Positions 1-9,269 of a DNA stretch of 45,208 nucleotides are shown piece by piece. Below the pieces are notes generated by a model that did no database searches, was not told the origin of the DNA, and saw nothing but the letters and a program-made list of their open reading frames with translations. The stretch is from Methylotenera sp. (lineage in GTDB: Bacteria; Pseudomonadota; Gammaproteobacteria; Burkholderiales; Methylophilaceae). The position numbers and the translations under genes are program-made. The stretch covers positions 1-45,208 of the forward strand of contig NZ_JAURYU010000026.1 of assembly GCF_030653755.1 (NCBI RefSeq), read 5' to 3'. How positions within the stretch are numbered: the stretch's first letter is position 1; every line of letters begins with the position of its first letter.

Positions 1-128
1 CAAAGTTTAACGGTATCCCTAAGCATACGTTCTATCTGCACCTGAAAGAGACTGAATATAGATTTAATCATCGACGTGATAACATTTACCTTGAGATACT
101 TAAACTTTTACGAAATAAACCGCTTTAG
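1..128 (+). mobile_element. 3' end of an IS1595-family (ISXO2-like) transposase, cut by the window edge
   Basis: The frame beginning at base 3 reads as the last 41 residues of a transposase and stops at TAG 126-128. The stretch KHTFYLHLKETEYRFNHR followed by a short LLRNKPL tail is typical of the C-terminus of ISXO2-like DDE transposases (IS1595 family), where a conserved YRFN.R segment lies near the end. The catalytic core is outside the window. No terminal inverted repeat can be identified to the right, because a glycosyltransferase frame begins directly after the stop. The element therefore probably ends within a few bases of its stop codon, or its right end has been deleted. Family call is fairly sure; subtype is unknown. 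Confidence 0.75.
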
Positions 129-935
129 CTTCCTAAGACCCTTAATGAAATACAAAAACAAACATGCTTACCTATTCATCTAATTCATGTTCAAGAATGC
201 GGCATACCTTTTGCCAGAAATGCCGCATGTAAAAAAAGTTTAATACTAAATGCGGAATGGATTATCTTTATTGATGACGACGAAGAAGCGCTACCTGGCT
301 GGCTAAGTGCTTATGCAAATGCATTAATTAATTGCAAATCAAACGTACTAACTGGGCCAGTAGAATACATATTCCCCGACAATAATGATAAATGGCTGAA
401 AAATAAAGGATTTCCTCTACATAAAGATGGTCAGTTTATTAAATCAGCAGCAACAAGCAACGTCATGTTCTCGACAAAACTACTTACTTCGGATAACCAA
501 TTAAGCTTCGATTGTACTATGGCACTTACAGGTGGAAGTGATGCTGATTTCTTTGCTCGCTATATCCACCAAGGCGGCAAGATTACGGCAGTATCAAATG
601 CTCGAGTAAAAGAGCATGTATCACCTCATAGAGTCACTTTAATCTGGCGATTGAGAAGACAAATGCAAAGTAGCGCGAACAGAGTTTATACTAGCCGAAA
701 ACTTTACCCAAGCAAAAAAGTTTATATATCTGTATTGCAAGAGGTTTTAAAAAGATTGATACATGGTTCAATTAGAACACTCACCTCTCCGTTGTGGCTA
801 ATAGCTGGATATTATCCATTCAAAAAATCCCTCTATCACGGGCTTAGACACTATGCAAAAGCTATAGGTCTCACTTGCGCTTTATTCAACTTGAAAAAAC
901 ACATAGAGCTATATCGAACTACAGATGGCTACTAG
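129..935 (+). pseudogene. Family 2 glycosyltransferase missing its N-terminus
   Basis: An open frame runs from the codon after the transposase stop to TAG at 935, about 268 codons, but has no start codon before ATG 465. The segment upstream of that ATG is clearly coding: GIPFARNAACKKS followed by EWIIFIDDDEEALPGW matches the GT-A region ending in the metal-binding DxD. Further on, GGSDADFFARYIHQGG resembles the acceptor-site helix of GT2 enzymes. The first strand and nucleotide-binding loop (about 80 residues) are absent, replaced by the IS end. Beginning the gene at 465 would omit the DxD, so a functional enzyme is unlikely. It is convergent with the epimerase gene, 6 bases away. The original product was probably a polysaccharide glycosyltransferase, since sugar-nucleotide genes follow. 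Confidence 0.8.
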
Positions 936-941
936 GATAAC

Positions 942-1967
942 TTAAGCCAAAACGTAACTTTTATACCAGTCAACAAATTGAGAAATACCGTACTCAATCT
1001 GAACCTGTGGTGTGAATCCAATTTCTTTTAACTTTGAAATATCTGCGTAAGTAGACGCTACATCCCCTGGTTGCATTGGTAATATGTTTTTAATTGCCTG
1101 CATCCCACATGCAACCTCAATCGCTTCAATAAAACGATTTAAGGAAACGGGGTTACCACATCCCAAGTTATATATTCTATAAGGTGCTGTCACACCCGGC
1201 TCCTTATGGATATGAAAGTTTTCATTGGCAGACTCAATGGATTGATGAACTATACTTATTATCCCATTTATAATATCGTCAATATAAGTAAAGTCACGTT
1301 CTAAATTACCATGGTTATAGATATCGATAGCTTTATTTTCTAAAATTGATTTTGTAAATTTATAGTAAGCCATATCTGGTCGCCCCCATGGCCCATATAC
1401 AGTAAAGAAACGTAATCCTGACGTGGGTAAATTGAATAGATGACTATATGTATGCGCTATCAATTCATTGGATTTTTTTGTGGCCGCATATAAACTGACC
1501 GGATGATCAACATTGTCGCTCTCACTGAATGGCTGCTTACTATTATTACCATAGACTGAGCTGGAAGATGCATATAAGAAATGGCTAACCTTTGAATGGC
1601 GGCAGCCTTCAATCACATTGAGAAAACCTAAAACATTACTATTGATGTAAGCATGAGGGTTATCGATAGAATATCTCACCCCTGCTTGGGCAGCTAAATG
1701 TATCACCACATCAAACGTATAGTTTTCAAATATGCTCTCAACAGCCACCTTATTTGACAAATCCAGCTTCACGAAAGTGTAGCGATCAGCACATTCCAAC
1801 GCTTTTGCAAACTTATCCAGTTCTTTCAAACGGTCATACTTTAGCTTTGGATCATAATAATCATTCAAGTTATCCACACCTATGACTTGATGCCCCAATT
1901 GCAACAGAGCTTTCGCCAAATGAAAGCCTATAAAGCCTGCTGAACCTGTAATTAATATTTTTTTCAT
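942..1967 (-). CDS. UDP-glucuronate 4-epimerase-like SDR protein
   Basis: This is an NAD-dependent extended SDR sugar-nucleotide epimerase, 341 residues, the normal family length. The N-terminal Rossmann motif GSAGFIG is at residues 8-14, the SSSSVYG segment ends near 140, and the catalytic YxxxK pair is Tyr160/Lys164. The segment VDNLNDYYDPKLK after the second strand is characteristic of the UDP-glucuronate 4-epimerase (CapI/LspL) group, which makes UDP-galacturonate from UDP-glucuronate. The UDP-glucose dehydrogenase gene immediately upstream on the same strand would supply UDP-glucuronate, so the two form a two-step route to an acidic sugar donor. A UDP-GlcNAc-type 4-epimerase cannot be fully excluded. 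Confidence 0.9.
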   Translation of the reverse strand: MKKILITGSAGFIGFHLAKALLQLGHQVIGVDNLNDYYDPKLKYDRLKELDKFAKALECADRYTFVKLDLSNKVAVESIFENYTFDVVIHLAAQAGVRYSIDNPHAYINSNVLGFLNVIEGCRHSKVSHFLYASSSSVYGNNSKQPFSESDNVDHPVSLYAATKKSNELIAHTYSHLFNLPTSGLRFFTVYGPWGRPDMAYYKFTKSILENKAIDIYNHGNLERDFTYIDDIINGIISIVHQSIESANENFHIHKEPGVTAPYRIYNLGCGNPVSLNRFIEAIEVACGMQAIKNILPMQPGDVASTYADISKLKEIGFTPQVQIEYGISQFVDWYKSYVLA

Positions 1968-2101: not shown

Positions 2102-3268
2102 TCAGTCTTGCCCAAACAGATCCCTGCTATACACTTTGCTTTCTACATCCTTGATGTCATCTGTCACTCTGTTAGCAATAATCACGTCAGACATCTTTTT
2201 AAACTGGACCAAATCATTAATAACGCTTGATTGAAAAAACTCGGGCTCTGTTAGCACAGGCTCATATACAACAACTTTTATTCCTTTTGCCTTGATGCGT
2301 TTCATAATACCTTGAATAGAAGAGGATCTAAAATTATCAGACCCTGCTTTCATCACTAAACGGTAAATACCTACAGTTTTAGGATTGCGGCTCAGTACGC
2401 TTTGGGCAATAAAGTCTTTTCTGGTACTATTGGCCGTGACGATAGCCTCGATCAGTTTCTGGGGTACATCTTTGTAATTTGCCAGTAGTTGCTTGGTGTC
2501 TTTAGGCAGGCAGTACCCACCATACCCGAATGACGGGTTGTTATAGTGACTGCCAACCCTAGGGTCTAGACATACGCCGTCAATGATTTGTCGTGTGTCC
2601 AAACCATGTGAAAGCGCATAGGTATCCAGCTCATTAAAATAGGCCACCCTCATTGCCAGATAAGTATTCGCAAACAGCTTAATCGCTTCAGCCTCCGAGC
2701 TATCTGTATAAAGCACTGGGATATCTTGCTTGATAGCAGCTTGCTGCAGGAGCTTTACAAAAATCGTAGCCCTTTCCGACCGCTCGCCAACAATAATGCG
2801 TGACGGATAAAGGTTATCGTGTAAGGCCTTGCCTTCACGCAGGAATTCTGGCGAGAATATAATGCCATCAAAATTAAAGCGTTTTTTAAGCTTATCGGTA
2901 TATCCAACTGGCACCGTTGATTTGATAATAATGACCGCATTTGGGTTGATGTTAATTACATCGCTGATTACCAACTCAATTGAACTTGTGTCAAAAAAGT
3001 TGGTTTGTGTATCGTAGTCAGTTGGCGTGGCAATCACCACATAATCTGCATCGAGATAAGCGTCTTGTGAGTCAAGCGTAGCTCTGAGCCGTAACGTTTT
3101 GTTTTTTAGATAAAGCTCAATATCTGTATCTTCAATGGGCGAGTGACGCTGATTGAGCATATCAACCTTTTCGGGGTTGATATCCAGCGCCACAACTTCA
3201 TTATGCTGCGCTAATAAAACAGCATTGGATAACCCAACGTAACCGCTACCTACTATTGTAATTTTCAT
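2102..3268 (-). CDS. ugd: UDP-glucose 6-dehydrogenase
   Basis: It oxidises UDP-glucose to UDP-glucuronate with two NAD. The 388-residue protein has the nucleotide-binding motif GSGYVGL at 7-13, the [13 protein letters not shown] segment at 139-151, the [17 protein letters not shown] helix near 197-213, and the catalytic cysteine in [12 protein letters not shown] at Cys253. The start is ATG 3268, 12 codons inside the longest frame, because it is preceded by an AGGG ribosome-binding site and places the Rossmann motif at residue 7 as usual. Neighbours are cysC upstream and the UDP-glucuronate epimerase downstream, all on the minus strand. This supports a role in acidic exopolysaccharide or LPS sugars. 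Confidence 0.95.
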
Positions 3269-3365
3269 TGATTTCCCTGCACTTTTTTTAACTCGCAGAC
3301 ACAAAGCATACTCAACAAATGCTTTTTTGTAAGCCAGTCTTTTCTTTAGTAAATTTTAAGTGCTC

Positions 3366-4047: not shown

Positions 4048-4839
4048 CTAAAACTTCGCTAAAAGTAGCTCTCTTTTTTGCAGTCTATTTTCGTTAATAA
4101 AGTTTATGAACGCGTTTGCACTTTTTTCTGGCGAGCAGATTTTATTAGGCCCAGTAAAAACCACGCTCAATGCCCCCAGCCCAGAAATTTCATATCTGGC
4201 AAAGTACATGGGGATTTGTTGTTGACTGGCTAACACAAAAAGCGTTGGGCTAATAAATGTAAACTTATCACTTTTATTTTTTGGAAAATCAATATCACAA
4301 CAGACTATTTTATTTTGATTGAGCGCTTTAACTAACTTGAGTAAACAATACTGGTCTCTATCTATCAGGGTAATCTCTGCGTTAATGCCTGTTCTTTTAA
4401 ATACCTTGTTTTTCACGTAGTCCTGATCAGCGACTATCGTAGTTACTTGACGCTGATGACTGCTCATAAATTTAGTGGTAAAAGCGAAGCCGTTATGCAC
4501 TGTAACCACGATAAAAGTAGCATTATTTTTTATTGCATCTATTAAATCTGGATGATGATTGTGAAGAATCTCTGGAACATAGGGATGCCCAACTTTTGCC
4601 ATGCGCTTCACTAACACTAACAGAAAGTATTCACGATAGCTCAGCTGGTGCCTGTGTTCACAATATTTCACAACCTTGTTTAATAGCTTGCTACTATCTA
4701 ACTTTTCAAATGTACGGTGAAATACATCTTTTTTAGCTAATTTTTTTAGCTTTAAAAAATACAAAACTAAGACTGCTACCACGCAATCTATGATTTTTTT
4801 TGCTGTGTTTCTACGTTTCTTTAAAAAATAACTAATCAT
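4048..4839 (-). CDS. Putative LpxL/HtrB-like acyltransferase (LPLAT superfamily, divergent)
   Basis: The 263-residue protein starts at ATG 4839, 5 bases after the ACP stop; a TTG at 4848 overlapping that stop is an alternative. A hydrophobic stretch near residues 16-29 could anchor it in the inner membrane. The order of motifs resembles lipid A-type acyltransferases: a histidine after a beta strand (VVTVHNGFAF, about His115), a central LLKLVKALNQNKIVCCDIDF segment like the family's aLr.g..v..l.Dq, then the LFVLASQQQIPMYFARYE segment. The usual HX4D/E acidic residue is not present, as the sixth position is Phe. It may therefore be a changed acyltransferase or use other residues. Coupling to an ACP gene strongly suggests an acyl-ACP donor. 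Exact acceptor unknown. Confidence 0.6.
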   Translation of the reverse strand: MISYFLKKRRNTAKKIIDCVVAVLVLYFLKLKKLAKKDVFHRTFEKLDSSKLLNKVVKYCEHRHQLSYREYFLLVLVKRMAKVGHPYVPEILHNHHPDLIDAIKNNATFIVVTVHNGFAFTTKFMSSHQRQVTTIVADQDYVKNKVFKRTGINAEITLIDRDQYCLLKLVKALNQNKIVCCDIDFPKNKSDKFTFISPTLFVLASQQQIPMYFARYEISGLGALSVVFTGPNKICSPEKSANAFINFINENRLQKRELLLAKF

Positions 4840-4844
4840 CAAAT

Positions 4845-5090
4845 TCAAATATTAGCGATAGATTGAATTAATCGTTTTACATCTTGTAAGTTTTTACACA
4901 GTGCAAATCTCTCAACAGGTAGACTGATTTTGAAATAATTATCTATTTGCATCAGTAGATCTAATGTATCAAGACTGTCTAACGCAAGGTCGTCAATTCT
5001 CGTTTCTAAACTTAACACCATATCTTTATGCTTAGTTGAAAACTCTTTAAAAACTTTGAGTATATCTTGCTCTAATTGTGCTTCAGTCAT
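4845..5090 (-). CDS. Acyl carrier protein
   Basis: This small acidic helical protein of 81 residues has the phosphopantetheine attachment motif DSL at 38-40 (Ser39) in LALDSLDTLDLLMQID, typical of type II acyl carrier proteins. It is not the housekeeping acpP, which normally sits in the fab cluster and has the DSLDTVELVMALE sequence. Its start overlaps the end of the P450 gene by 8 bases and has a good ribosome-binding site (AAGGTGAG). Its stop is followed almost at once by the acyltransferase. It is therefore a dedicated carrier for the flanking enzymes, probably holding a fatty or polyketide-like acyl chain for oxidation and transfer. Confidence 0.88.
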   Translation of the reverse strand: MTEAQLEQDILKVFKEFSTKHKDMVLSLETRIDDLALDSLDTLDLLMQIDNYFKISLPVERFALCKNLQDVKRLIQSIANI

Positions 5091-6132
5091 GAAAGCTCAC
5101 CTTAATTGTGTTGTATATGTTGAATACGTTGTCGAACTCTCTACGGCTTACGTCATGAAGTTGAATTGTACTGTGTGTATTTGCAAACGCAGCAGCGATT
5201 AAACTCCATATTTTTTTGCCTATTGGCATACCCAAACACACATGGCGTCCAGCACCGAAATACAGCTGAGAGTATGAGGGCTCATCGCTATCAGCATAAC
5301 CTGTAGCGTCTAGATACAATCTGAACCTTTGGCCTGCTTGAAAAGCCTGCCCCTCAAGGTTTAGAGGTTGCGTGAGTATCCTTTCAATTACGGGTACACC
5401 AGTTACAGAGATATCACTTGGCCAAGACATATTACTCAGAGCCTGCCCTGGATGGGTGAGCAACACATTCACTATTGATTCGGTAAGTGTTCCTAAAAGC
5501 GAATCAACACCTAATGCCAACATTGAGACTCGAAAATACTTTTCATCTAAACTTAAATCATCGGGTAACGAGTTAATTAACTCAGCAATAATGTGATTAA
5601 TTTTGATGCGTTTAGTGAGCGGTAATGTTTCATCTAAAATCTGAGAAATAGAATCCGAAAAGGATAGTTTAGAGAATTCAATATCTAGTAATATTGCAAA
5701 AAAATGCTGAATACTAGGCATCAATAAATCGTCATGTAGATTAAAAACAATGCCTGCTTCATCCTGAAGTGCTTGAAGTTTTATTGTAAAGTTTAGATTA
5801 AAACTTTCTAGCGCAGCATCTCCATTTAGCATTAATTGGCGAGCATGGCGTTTACGTATCGCCTTATGAGCCTCACCCTCTAGCGCTACAGGAAAATATT
5901 TTACCAGCGTAATATTATGCTCAAGATCTACTGGTATTCTTTCAATAATTTTTTCTACTGAGTACGTCGGCACTTCGAACTGTCGGTTAGCCAAGATTGC
6001 TTTAATAAGTGCAGCGTCAGTACAAATCCAACGATTTAACTCATTTGACCACCAAAGCTTTTCTTTTTGTTGATAAATACTTAACTTATCTTGTCTTCGA
6101 TGTATGGTGTAATCAGAATATTCTTTTTGCAT
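5083..6132 (-). CDS. Atypical short cytochrome P450
   Basis: The heme-binding loop FGAGRHVCLG is at 292-301 with the thiolate ligand Cys299. A C-helix His89...Arg93 pair (EGEAHKAIRKRHA) matches the P450 segment that contacts heme propionates. The I helix region YFRVSMLALGVDSLLGTLTE (about 199-218) lacks the usual AGxDTT. The K-helix ExxR motif appears as E250-R-I-L, so the conserved arginine is missing. The meander before the heme loop is shortened, giving 349 residues against about 400 for soluble bacterial P450s. No membrane anchor is visible and no redox partner is adjacent. Translational overlap with an ACP gene suggests oxidation of an ACP-bound acyl chain, as P450 BioI does; that is inference. 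Confidence 0.88.
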   Translation of the reverse strand: MQKEYSDYTIHRRQDKLSIYQQKEKLWWSNELNRWICTDAALIKAILANRQFEVPTYSVEKIIERIPVDLEHNITLVKYFPVALEGEAHKAIRKRHARQLMLNGDAALESFNLNFTIKLQALQDEAGIVFNLHDDLLMPSIQHFFAILLDIEFSKLSFSDSISQILDETLPLTKRIKINHIIAELINSLPDDLSLDEKYFRVSMLALGVDSLLGTLTESIVNVLLTHPGQALSNMSWPSDISVTGVPVIERILTQPLNLEGQAFQAGQRFRLYLDATGYADSDEPSYSQLYFGAGRHVCLGMPIGKKIWSLIAAAFANTHSTIQLHDVSRREFDNVFNIYNTIKVSFHD

Positions 6133-6271
6133 ATTTTCAAAGACCTTAAACCTGATTTAGTGAATTATTGCTTATTGTACAGGCTAGTATCAATCATATT
6201 GATGATAAAGTTGCATCTTATTTCTTTATTAAATATCATTAAAAGAAAATTTAATAAAACCATATAAAGCA

Positions 6272-6670
6272 TTAATAAGCCCCGCCAGTAAACTTCTTAA
6301 TATCCCTAAGCTGCCGTTTAGTCGGGCGCCCCGTCCCTCGATCTCGTTGCGCAAAATCATGCTCGCCAGTAAGTTTTGCATTTTCACGCTTGGCAATACT
6401 TTCTGTAGTTTCGGAATACAGTAGTGCAGCTTCTGGTGCGCCTTTGCGTATATTAGATAATGCTAGAACATTGACTTCAATTTCAAAATCTCGGTTACGG
6501 ATATGAATCACTTGGCCGATATGCACTTCTTTTGCAGGTTTTACACGGTCGCCATCCACATGGACTTTGCCAGTATCAATGGCAGTGGTAGCTAGGCTAC
6601 GTGTTTTAAAAAAACGGGCAGCCCAGAGCCATTTATCTAGCCTGCATTTGCTATCAGTTTCATTTGCCAT
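6272..6670 (-). CDS. hslR: Heat-shock protein 15 homologue, S4 RNA-binding protein
   Basis: The 132-residue basic protein opens with an S4 domain: RLDKWLWAARFFKTRSLATTAIDTGKVHVDG at residues 10-40, closely like Hsp15. It binds 50S subunits with stalled nascent chains and helps recycle them in E. coli; the role here is by family. The C-terminal tail is rich in Arg and Lys (GTGRPTKRQLRDIKKF), as in the family. It is the last gene of a minus-strand run after a Lon-like protease (30-base gap), so a shared protein quality-control theme is plausible. Confidence 0.92.
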   Translation of the reverse strand: MANETDSKCRLDKWLWAARFFKTRSLATTAIDTGKVHVDGDRVKPAKEVHIGQVIHIRNRDFEIEVNVLALSNIRKGAPEAALLYSETTESIAKRENAKLTGEHDFAQRDRGTGRPTKRQLRDIKKFTGGAY

Positions 6671-6700: not shown

Positions 6701-8809
6701 TTAAGCAGATCTTTTAGGTAGGTTGGTTTCTAGTATTTTCTTGAAATCATGAAGCACAACTTCTGCAAGATCATTTACTTCCTGCAAGCTACGACCTGTT
6801 AGATACAAAATACCATCGGCGACATTATTCATGGTGGCGATGTGAAATTGACCATTTTCAACCGCTTGAATCACTTCGTCACTGAGCATGAGATGGCGCA
6901 TATTGCGCTCTGGCATCAGCACACCTTGCTTACCATCTAAGCCAATTTCTTTACACACTCTGAAATAGCCTTCAATTTTTTCATTAAGGCCTCCGACTGG
7001 CAGCACTTCGCCATGCTGATTAAGTGCGCCAGTGACGGCGATACCTTGTTTAATTGGCACTTGTGTGAGCGATGAAAGTAATGCAAATAGCTCTGCACAT
7101 GAGGCTGAATCACCATCCACACCGCTGTACTCTTGCTCGAATACAAGAGAGGCTGTGAGGTTAAGTGGATTCAACAGTGCAAAGTTAGCATGTAGCCAGC
7201 TTTGTAAAATCATGACGCCTTTATCATGTGTAGGGCCACTCATACTCACTTCACGGTCAATGGTCAGCACACCGCGGCTACCAGGATAGCAATTGGCAGA
7301 AATGCGCACAGGTGAGCCAAAGCTTGCTTCAGATAAATCGATATGTGTTAGGCCGTTAATTTGGCCGATACATTCGCCATGCACACTAATAATGAGCTCT
7401 TTATCTACAATAGAGTCTCGCATATGTGCCTCAATGTAACTGTGGCGTGCATATTTGCGCTGTATGGCTGATTTTACGTCTTCTACTTCTACCAATTCTG
7501 CACCACGCAGGTTAGCTGCTGCTGCACTTTCTAAAAGCAGTTTTTCAAGCACTGCAAACTTGGTACTGAGCCTTGTTTGATCTTCAATTAAGCGATGCAT
7601 TGCTTGTAATAAAACAGCGACCGCTTCTGCGGTGACGTGACAGCAGTTATGTTGGCGGCACTTATGGGCAATAAATGATGCATAAGCCGCATAGTTCTCA
7701 GGGCTGGCTTTTACTTGGTCAGCAAACTCTATTTTGATGGGGAAGAAATCAAAAAAGTCTGGCTTTACACTTAATAGCTCATAGTAATCTTCACGGGTGG
7801 CTATCAATACAATTTTGACTGAAACTGGTATTGCCGCTTGTGCACTAATCAGGCTACTACCTTGATTACCACTACTGCTTAAGTCTTCAATTTGCAAGGT
7901 GCCATTTCGTAAGAATCGGTGCAATTTTTCAAGGATATGTGTGCCATTTTGTTCATCAGCAAGAATGTCACGCAAATGTAGTAATAACGTACCGCCATCA
8001 GCGCGCATTAGATTGCCTGCTCGTAAACGCATAAAATCAGGGATATTACTAGCTTCACTTGCGCCTTCTATACCGCCAAATAAAGACTGTAAACTGGGGT
8101 CATTATCATAAAGCACTGGTGCATGTTGTGTTGCATGGTGTTCTACCAACACGTTGGCACGATAGCGGCCGAAGAAGCTTTCAGAGATGAGTGCTTCAAG
8201 GTTACTTTCACCATCAGCACTTGTCGTGGGCTGTATATTTTCGAGTGTCTCTAATATATCTTTTTGTAGCGCATTAAAATAATGCGTTGGCATTTTGTCT
8301 GCATCGATCAAAGTAAGGCTGGCTTTAACTGTGCTCAACTGCCCTTCTAAGAAAATCTGCAAGGGTGCAATCGAGTTTTGCTGCACTTTGGCTTCTAATA
8401 AGCTTGCAAGGTCTTTGGCAAAAACGCGTACAAAACTATCCAACGCTTGTTTTAACTGTACACCTGCCCCCGCTGGCAACTTGATAAACAGGGGCTTTCC
8501 GTTGCCGTCAAACTGGTATAGTGCGACTAAATCACTTGCTGCTGACCACTTTTTTGCAGCATCATGCATCACGCTGGTCATCAGGGTAGTTCGACCAGAC
8601 CCAGGTTCACCCAAAGCAAGCAAATTAAAGCCAGATTGCTGAATGCTTAACCCAAACTCAGCCGCCTTTTTAGCCTCTGCTTGGGCTACCCATGCTTGAT
8701 ATTGGGCGTTATCGTGTTTTTCAACAAGCAGTTCTGATGTGTCAGCAAAGTTGAATTGCTCCAATGCCACATTGAGAGTTAGCTGTTGAGGTATTAATGT
8801 TTTTTGCAT
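6701..8809 (-). CDS. Lon-related ATP-dependent serine protease (LonH/YcbZ type)
   Basis: The 702-residue protein pairs an N-terminal AAA-like module with a C-terminal S16 Lon protease domain. The catalytic dyad is visible: Ser568 in SGVDGDSASCAEL and Lys611 in GGLNEKIEGYF. LMRADGGTLLLHLRDIL (about 267-283) is typical of the Lon-related AAA_32 group. It lacks the N-terminal substrate domain of classical Lon and is not membrane-anchored like archaeal LonB. The P-loop reads GEPGSGRTT (67-75), with Arg where the Walker A lysine is expected. ATP use may therefore differ, or the residue may be normal in this subgroup. The start lies 1 base after the moaE stop, so the two are likely co-translated. 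The substrate is unknown. Confidence 0.9.
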   Translation of the reverse strand: MQKTLIPQQLTLNVALEQFNFADTSELLVEKHDNAQYQAWVAQAEAKKAAEFGLSIQQSGFNLLALGEPGSGRTTLMTSVMHDAAKKWSAASDLVALYQFDGNGKPLFIKLPAGAGVQLKQALDSFVRVFAKDLASLLEAKVQQNSIAPLQIFLEGQLSTVKASLTLIDADKMPTHYFNALQKDILETLENIQPTTSADGESNLEALISESFFGRYRANVLVEHHATQHAPVLYDNDPSLQSLFGGIEGASEASNIPDFMRLRAGNLMRADGGTLLLHLRDILADEQNGTHILEKLHRFLRNGTLQIEDLSSSGNQGSSLISAQAAIPVSVKIVLIATREDYYELLSVKPDFFDFFPIKIEFADQVKASPENYAAYASFIAHKCRQHNCCHVTAEAVAVLLQAMHRLIEDQTRLSTKFAVLEKLLLESAAAANLRGAELVEVEDVKSAIQRKYARHSYIEAHMRDSIVDKELIISVHGECIGQINGLTHIDLSEASFGSPVRISANCYPGSRGVLTIDREVSMSGPTHDKGVMILQSWLHANFALLNPLNLTASLVFEQEYSGVDGDSASCAELFALLSSLTQVPIKQGIAVTGALNQHGEVLPVGGLNEKIEGYFRVCKEIGLDGKQGVLMPERNMRHLMLSDEVIQAVENGQFHIATMNNVADGILYLTGRSLQEVNDLAEVVLHDFKKILETNLPKRSA

Positions 8810-8810
8810 A

Positions 8811-9269
8811 TTATTTTTCTATATTCCAACGGTCACGAGCCATATCATCTGCTGATTTTGCCTCTATCCAATGTTCACCTTTTGAATTAGCTTCTTTTTT
8901 CCAGAATGGTGCTTCTGTTTTGAGATAATCCATCATAAATTCACAAGCTGAAAACGCATCTCCGCGATGCGCACTGCTCACTACCACCAGCACTATTTGA
9001 TCGCTAGGTTGCAATGTGCCAACACGATGCACGACTAAGGCATCGAAAATATTCCATCGTGCTTTTGCTTGATCAATAATCGAACTTAAAGATTTCTCCG
9101 TCATGCCTGGATAATGCTCAAGGGTGAGCTGTGATACTTCATCGCCCTCGTTCAAATCGCGCACCAACCCTACAAAGCTGACAACCGCGCCAATATCTTT
9201 ACGTGATTGACGTAGCTGATTGATTTCTAGACCGACATCAAAATCTTCTGTTTGCACCCTTACTGTCAT
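8811..9269 (-). CDS. moaE: Molybdopterin synthase catalytic (large) subunit
   Basis: The 152-residue MoaE has GAVVSFVGLVRDLNEGD at about 27-43, HYPGMTEKSL, the HRVGTLQPSDQIVLVVVSSAHRGDAF core and the KTEAPFWKKE segment with the conserved catalytic lysine. With MoaD it converts cyclic pyranopterin phosphate to molybdopterin in the cytosol. It follows moaD on the same strand, but the two are separated by a 115-base gap holding a REP-like double palindrome. No other molybdenum-cofactor gene is in the window. Confidence 0.96.
   Translation of the reverse strand: MTVRVQTEDFDVGLEINQLRQSRKDIGAVVSFVGLVRDLNEGDEVSQLTLEHYPGMTEKSLSSIIDQAKARWNIFDALVVHRVGTLQPSDQIVLVVVSSAHRGDAFSACEFMMDYLKTEAPFWKKEANSKGEHWIEAKSADDMARDRWNIEK

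Follow-up and report, generated by a model that had tools for sequence, protein, structure and literature searches.

A rare P450-like, acyl carrier protein and acyltransferase-like gene module in Methylotenera and related genomes, with a third partner that is exchanged for a hydrolase

What do three tightly packed genes, encoding a P450-like protein, a carrier protein and an acyltransferase-like protein, do together at the edge of a polysaccharide locus in Methylotenera sp.? The genes lie on contig NZ_JAURYU010000026.1, a complete contig of 45,208 bases that was analysed as a whole and is called here the window; the polysaccharide locus is therefore cut at base 1. We find that the three genes form a unit that recurs, rarely, in other genomes, and our reading, which we regard as about evenly balanced between right and wrong, is that the unit is a self-contained, carrier-protein-dependent acyl-modification module. 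All three genes are on the minus strand. The first (6132-5083) encodes a P450-like protein of 349 amino acids, assigned by a Pfam p450 match below cut-off together with family-profile comparison and motif columns. The second (5090-4845) encodes a stand-alone acyl carrier protein (ACP) of 81 amino acids with a Pfam PP-binding match over cut-off, and the third (4848-4048) an acyltransferase-like protein of 266 amino acids, counted from a TTG at 4848 and assigned by profile comparison with LpxL-type proteins. The P450-like and ACP genes overlap by 8 bases (5083-5090). The ACP stop and the start of the third gene overlap by 4 bases if the TTG is used and lie 5 bases apart if translation starts at an in-frame ATG at 4839, nine bases inside the TTG. 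The coordinates, the strand and the 8-base overlap had been given correctly in the original prediction, made from the letters of the window. Around the unit, promoter- and terminator-like sites are no more numerous than in shuffled sequence.

The original prediction also held that the three genes act as a unit, and the recurrence of the trio in other genomes bears this out: the three gene families are found together again in genomes G006, G374 and G911, so that the refuting condition named in that prediction, an absence of co-occurrence in other genomes, does not hold. Relatives were sought in whole genomes with the P450-like protein as query and then with growing alignments of its family; the threshold of E 0.001 admits ordinary P450s, which were separated from the family by score, length and motif. 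Nine modules were found in eight genomes of one class: the window and loci L004, L009, L010, L027, L034, L035, L036 and L037. The closest relative of the window module, L004 (G006, same genus as the window), and L009 (G374 contig 11, other family) hold the trio in the window's order with the same 8-base P450/ACP overlap. At L035 (G374 contig 6) and L036 (G911, same family as G374) the P450-like and ACP genes lie together and the acyltransferase-like gene is convergent. The other four modules, L037 (G935) and L034 (G943), both in the family of G374, L010 (G287) and L027 (G674, another family of the class), are of a type in which an alpha/beta-hydrolase is the partner. The P450-like, ACP and acyltransferase-like proteins of the window are 47, 41 and 30% identical to those of L004, and the P450-like protein is 15 to 31% identical to those of the other seven relatives. 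In all, five modules, from two families, contain all three gene families, and nine modules, from four families, combine a P450-like gene with an ACP gene. These two recurrences contradict a chance arrangement of three unrelated genes, which we consider next to impossible. That the three genes are real, lie where described above and belong together is confirmed.

The P450-like/ACP gene association is conserved. An ACP gene is present near the P450-like gene in 9/9 modules and directly behind it in seven, where the two genes overlap by 8 or 4 bases or are separated by 14 to 17; in L010 it follows 937 bases behind the P450-like gene and in L034 it stands 986 bases before it. None was found at the 15 other P450 loci of a class-wide search (L012-L026; 14 full-length, L026 a short open reading frame, ORF), a comparison that covers the place directly behind the gene in 15/15 and only 0.6-1.4 kb before it, such that an upstream ACP like that of L034 could escape in most. 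Three further P450 loci (L068-L070) gave no ACP either. The ACP model was trained on seven of the nine modules; the ACPs of L034 and L036, and two from Azospirillum, were found without training. The candidate off-loading partners replace each other. Five modules, here called type A, carry the acyltransferase-like gene (window, L004, L009, L035, L036), four, called type B, carry the alpha/beta-hydrolase (L010, L027, L034, L037), and none carries both; a hydrolase gene near L009 is unrelated and is not matched by the type B hydrolase family model. Distances between the proteins across modules also run in parallel, with r 0.86 for P450-like against ACP (1 of 5000 label shuffles as high), r 0.88 for P450-like against acyltransferase-like (1 of 120 orders, the true one) and r 0.95 for ACP against acyltransferase-like (4 of 120 orders), values that owe part of their height to the close pair L035/L036.

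Is the first protein a P450? The label that it had been given stands as far as fold and haem-ligand loop are concerned, but its direct Pfam match is weak: the window protein scores 16.2 bits against PF00067 (E 0.0047), below the cut-off of 22.8. The relatives L004, L009 and L034 are likewise below cut-off and L010 is unlisted, such that Pfam missed the protein in five of the five modules scanned, L027, L035, L036 and L037 lying outside that scan. At the profile level the relation is strong. A profile of the nine family proteins aligns with 14 ordinary P450s over 313 columns (hhalign Prob 99.65) and matches P450s of the PDB from E 1.2e-15; among these matches, though not the best of them, is the P450BioI-ACP complex 3ejb. 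The haem-thiolate loop F(G/A)xGxHxCxG is present in all nine, in the window as FGAGRHVCLG with Cys299 (codon 5238-5236). All nine keep this Cys, the His that precedes it and Arg251, which lies ahead of the beta strands, and of the C-helix pair (H89-x-x-x-R93 in the window) the His is kept in 9/9 and the Arg in 8/9. The I-helix motif is G-x-D-S in three members (window, L004, L009) and G-x-D-P in four (L027, L034, L035, L036); L010 and L037 have A-P or Q-P instead.

On the other side of the ledger, the K-helix ExxR is not in place in any of the nine: its Glu is found in 0/9 and its Arg in 3/9, against both in 14/14 ordinary P450s. The segment is gapped in four family members and changed in the rest; its placement depends on the alignment, and an EAER occurs further upstream in L036. 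The meander, where the third residue of the ERR triad lies, is shortened: the alignment has a gap there, after the beta strands and ahead of the haem loop. Given that the ExxR is absent and the meander short, monooxygenase activity is not assured. The loss has a precedent in CYP157 of Streptomyces, which is described as a P450 family without ExxR (PMC3599690). Like our family, CYP157 combines a Cys loop with the lack of the K-helix motif, and L035 and L036 have the Trp of CYP157 at the Arg column; CYP157 differs in that its K-helix is present with the Arg replaced, whereas the family described here has a segment gapped or changed, a short meander and other partners. Because this known exception also lacks the ExxR, the proteins are filed as a divergent relative of the P450 superfamily and not as a canonical P450.

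The same features raise the possibility that the protein is not an enzyme at all, and serves as a non-catalytic binding partner or scaffold in the manner of the P450-derived glycosyltransferase activators, in a module that only delivers an acyl group. The lack of the ExxR at its place and the short meander would fit this, and the best NCBIfam match of the window protein is TIGR04515, the model of such an activator, albeit at E 0.0087 and far below its cut-off. Yet a scaffold would not need the Cys ligand with its preceding His, Arg251 and the C-helix residues that the family keeps, and the P450s of CYP157 (PMC3599690) do likewise without the ExxR. We consider a purely structural role decidedly unlikely.

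What does the carrier hold? The window ACP matches Pfam PP-binding (PF00550) over cut-off, with 31.2 bits against 20.8 and E 2.7e-7. The phosphopantetheine serine lies in a DSL motif (Ser39, codon 4976-4974) and is kept in 9/9. The best NCBIfam model is TIGR00517 acyl_carrier (E 1.4e-9, below its cut-off), and in the seven other ACPs scanned (all but that of L035) acyl carrier models are likewise on top and below cut-off. Because these models, though all below cut-off, fit the ACPs best, a fatty acyl chain is suggested as the carrier-bound group.

A different cargo is conceivable. The carrier could hold an amino acid or peptide that the P450-like protein hydroxylates on the carrier, after loading by a ligase encoded elsewhere and before release or transfer by the third protein. 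NikQ and NovI are precedents for hydroxylation on a carrier, and NikQ/NikP1 and NovI/NovH resemble the present unit in that a P450 acts on a substrate held by a small dedicated carrier. Systems of this kind have an adenylation domain that loads the carrier; they differ from the unit in the window, where no adenylation gene is seen adjoining and where the ACP best fits an acyl carrier model. A ligase is suggested by two Azospirillum plasmid loci (L075 and L076, about 4280-6630), in which an ATP-grasp-like gene is followed by an ACP gene and then by a hydrolase of the type B family. The ATP-grasp-like gene matches PF14397 at 24.6 bits, below the cut-off of 31.4, and L076 has in addition a YheC/D ATP-grasp gene (131.9 bits) and a glycosyltransferase gene adjoining. 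Genes near L027, L035 and L036 also look ATP-grasp-like by eye; however, the L027 gene reaches a Pfam ligase match of only 13.9 bits, below cut-off, and was not helped by a PDB search, and the two L035 genes have no meaningful Pfam match. No ATP-grasp-like or adenylation gene is seen on ORF reading beside the window module, L004, L009, L010, L034 or L037, and the acyl carrier models that rank first for the window ACP and the seven others speak against an aminoacyl cargo, although all are below cut-off. We hold this alternative to be unlikely. The Azospirillum loci themselves are possibly a related carrier module without a P450. The genes that look ATP-grasp-like at L035 (4116-6172) and L036 (9526-11582) are a conserved pair beside the module, 80 and 75% identical between the two loci.

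The third protein of type A is the hardest to place. In the window it has no meaningful Pfam or NCBIfam family, and Pfam missed it in three of three proteins scanned. The term LpxL-like, under which it had first been described, survives at the profile level: a profile of the five relatives aligns with 16 LpxL-type proteins over 135 columns (hhalign Prob 84, E 7e-6 in one comparison), as against at most 0.23% probability for four controls (one four-row profile and three single proteins). The 16 proteins are those of 22 fetched loci, six having been dropped at ORF picking. His118 is aligned with the LpxL His, which is present in 5/5, and hydropathy shows a hydrophobic stretch close to the N-terminus of the window protein, a trait of LpxL proteins as well. 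The term fails at the family level. PF03279 (LpxL) is absent among the Pfam matches, and a search of the window's genome with this family hit two places, neither of them this gene. All five proteins lack the acid of the HX4(D/E) dyad, with F, L, A, F and F at +5. The hydrophobic stretch also sets two relatives apart from LpxL/HtrB, as L035 lacks a strong N-terminal peak and that of L036 is weak. PDB searches with the profile gave no significant match. Direct filing as LpxL was rejected on the missing PF03279 match and the missing acid; the protein is, by inference, a candidate distant relative of the LPLAT fold.

How might such a module work? The ACP would receive a phosphopantetheine arm on its conserved serine and would be loaded with an acyl group of outside origin, probably from fatty acid synthesis; an outside source is proposed because the unit contains no loading enzyme. 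The degenerate P450-like haem protein would then bind the acyl-ACP and change the chain, most likely by oxidation, after which the third protein would unload the product from the ACP. Type A modules, that of the window included, would use for this a distant relative of the LPLAT/LpxL fold, hydrophobic near its N-terminus, to pass the product to a membrane acceptor; in type B the alpha/beta-hydrolase would do the off-loading. Given the overlapping genes, the dedicated ACP with its serine, a haem-thiolate protein that matches 3ejb and a third partner that can be exchanged, we infer that most likely a carrier-bound group is modified and then off-loaded. In favour of the module, too, the two Azospirillum plasmids have an ACP gene together with a type B family hydrolase gene, with no P450-like match within 12 kb.

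Several observations weigh against the acyl-modification module. Haem binding, oxidation and acyl transfer are predicted functions, and the ExxR is not at its place, the meander is shortened and the dyad acid is missing, as described. The unit has no loading enzyme of its own. At L035 and L036 the third gene is convergent and outside the operon, and the same two loci raise the distance correlations. Taken singly, no acyltransferase-like sequence scores above 5.3% probability against LpxL, and single-sequence structure models were unusable, with pLDDT 36 and 41. The module is, moreover, rare and patchy in its distribution.

The nearest known counterpart of the proposed chemistry is P450BioI with ACP (PDB 3ejb/3ejd/3eje), a bacterial P450-fold protein that works on an ACP-held chain and that is among the PDB matches of the family profile. 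BioI is encoded in a biotin operon and works with the ACP of fatty acid synthesis. The present system differs in that the P450-like gene overlaps the gene of a dedicated ACP, that its protein lacks the ExxR, and that there is a further partner, transferase- or hydrolase-like. Could the module nonetheless be a variant of the biotin pathway, in which a P450BioI-like cleavage of acyl-ACP yields pimeloyl-ACP and the type B hydrolase acts like BioH? The match to 3ejb and the combination of P450, ACP and hydrolase would supply the right parts. However, BioC is found over cut-off in six of the eight module-bearing genomes, that of the window included, with a sub-cut-off match in G287 and fragments in the incomplete genome G935; and no biotin genes are seen beside the nine modules on ORF reading, BioH not having been searched for. 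Because BioC is over cut-off in 6/8 genomes, we judge a role in biotin synthesis very unlikely.

Returning to the acyl-modification module, a further step can be proposed, which we put forward tentatively and would expect to be wrong rather than right. The P450-like proteins may represent a separate branch of the P450 fold that lost the ExxR and part of the meander because its substrates come only on a dedicated carrier, and that persists as a haem-thiolate enzyme whose chemistry is not the canonical one (peroxide-driven oxidation, cleavage of the chain and isomerisation are examples); the exchangeable second half, LPLAT-fold or alpha/beta-hydrolase, would then decide the fate of the product.

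Why should this matter? The module is real, recurs and is rare, its P450-like member is unusual, and as a whole it is a variant of the known carrier-protein-dependent P450 systems. To our knowledge, free-standing pairs of a P450 and a carrier are few, and those that are known define steps of biosynthesis. A family that has the haem-thiolate loop, lacks the ExxR and is accompanied by its own ACP at 9/9 loci offers a direct test of how much of the P450 core a substrate delivered on a carrier requires, and the exchange between acyltransferase-like and hydrolase-like partners makes the off-loading step testable by comparison. Since Pfam missed the P450-like protein in 5/5 and the acyltransferase-like protein in 3/3 scanned, such modules may well carry the annotation 'hypothetical'. 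No description of a module of P450-like, ACP and acyltransferase-like or hydrolase genes was recognised, by title and start of abstract, among the matches listed in the open-access literature.

How rare is the module? The genomes drawn differ between searches, and a genome present in one may be missing from another. At the family level (150 genomes) the module was found in the window's own genome and G006, at the order level (399 genomes) in its own, G287 and G374, and among 61 genomes of the family of G374 in G374, G911, G935 and G943. The class-level search (369 genomes) matched 14 genomes, with the P450-like family only in the window's genome and G674, the sole genome of its family in the searched collection; the other 12 hold other P450s (15 loci). 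At the genus level (52 genomes, six matched) the module is intact in the window's genome and G006, G1326 has a truncated fragment, and G952, G1327 and G1324 have other P450s. The acyltransferase-like profile, run across 398 genomes of the phylum, matches the window's genome only. A scan of genome contigs with the acyltransferase-like protein gave no match, nor did a contig scan with a two-row P450 alignment, whose back-translated patterns covered the N-terminus only and are weak evidence of absence. On plasmids, one search with the acyltransferase-like protein gave no match, and searches with the P450 of the window and those of two relatives gave four weak records, three annotated as cytochrome P450 and one unannotated. 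Locus L067 (4084-4641, minus strand), in the window's genus, holds 185 amino acids from the N-terminal end of a type B-like P450; the locus gave no ACP match, and the fragment is likely a remnant of a lost module.

Does base composition point to transfer, as the AT-richness of the region had led the original prediction to propose? The unit has a G+C content of 36.2% against 41.4% for the window and ranks within the bottom 0.9% when compared with 863 overlapping stretches of the same length, and so is AT-richer as claimed, but across the relatives the picture is mixed. The unit is at least 4 points AT-richer than its surroundings in the window, L004, L010 and L027, slightly AT-richer in L037, and not AT-richer in L009, L034, L035 and L036. 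For L027 (40.1 vs 58.2%), composition suggests that transfer is likely.

A question remains, is the module tied to the polysaccharide locus that it adjoins in the window? On the minus strand, 73 bases beyond the unit, lies cysC, encoding adenylyl-sulfate kinase (3974-3366; PF01583 E 1.6e-68, NF003013 over cut-off), followed by ugd, a nucleotide-sugar dehydrogenase of the UDP-glucose 6-dehydrogenase type (2102..3304, minus strand; TIGR03026 over cut-off at 343 bits, NF011631 at 661.6 bits against a cut-off of 757), and by a gene for an NAD-dependent nucleotide-sugar epimerase (942..1967, minus strand; PF01370 E 2.9e-55), for which no NCBIfam equivalog is over cut-off among the 25 matches listed of 75. 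These genes are context, with cysC outside the conserved module. One could therefore suppose, as had been proposed, that the unit decorates a polysaccharide and acylates the glycan or glycolipid made by this locus. The short same-strand distance to cysC suits such a role, as does L027, which adjoins genes reading as nucleotide-sugar and polymer genes, and L037, a type B module whose P450-like gene has a gene for an Stf0 sulfotransferase (8078-8887, minus strand; PF09037, 97.5 bits) immediately upstream. The names of neighbours at L027 and of most other neighbour genes come from ORF reading in the fetched stretches, not from family searches, and on this reading polysaccharide-type genes adjoin two of the nine modules, the window and L027. 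In the other seven, L004 included, none was seen in the stretches read, no family search having been made; the module of L004, the nearest relative, instead lies between a FemAB-like gene (PF04339) and genes reading as a type I restriction system. The unit is also unlike cysC and ugd in G+C (about 42%), though not unlike the epimerase gene (37.2%). For the sulfated glycan that had been suggested, the window's genome has one sub-cut-off match to the sulfotransferase family PF13469, this family alone having been tested. The proposed tie to a polysaccharide or sulfated glycan is thus not borne out, and we regard decoration of a polysaccharide as doubtful, though worth keeping in view.

Two observations lie apart from the module. 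At the far edge of the window (1-935, plus strand), 41 codons without a Pfam match, which we take to be the end of an IS1595-type transposase, run into a glycosyltransferase family 2 frame that lacks its N-terminal part and is matched by Pfam from profile position 50. In the genus of the window, at L068 (327-2941) and L069 (3-2485), ordinary P450s adjoin a gene that, on ORF reading, resembles a phenylacetate-CoA ligase, and this is possibly a different, interesting pair.

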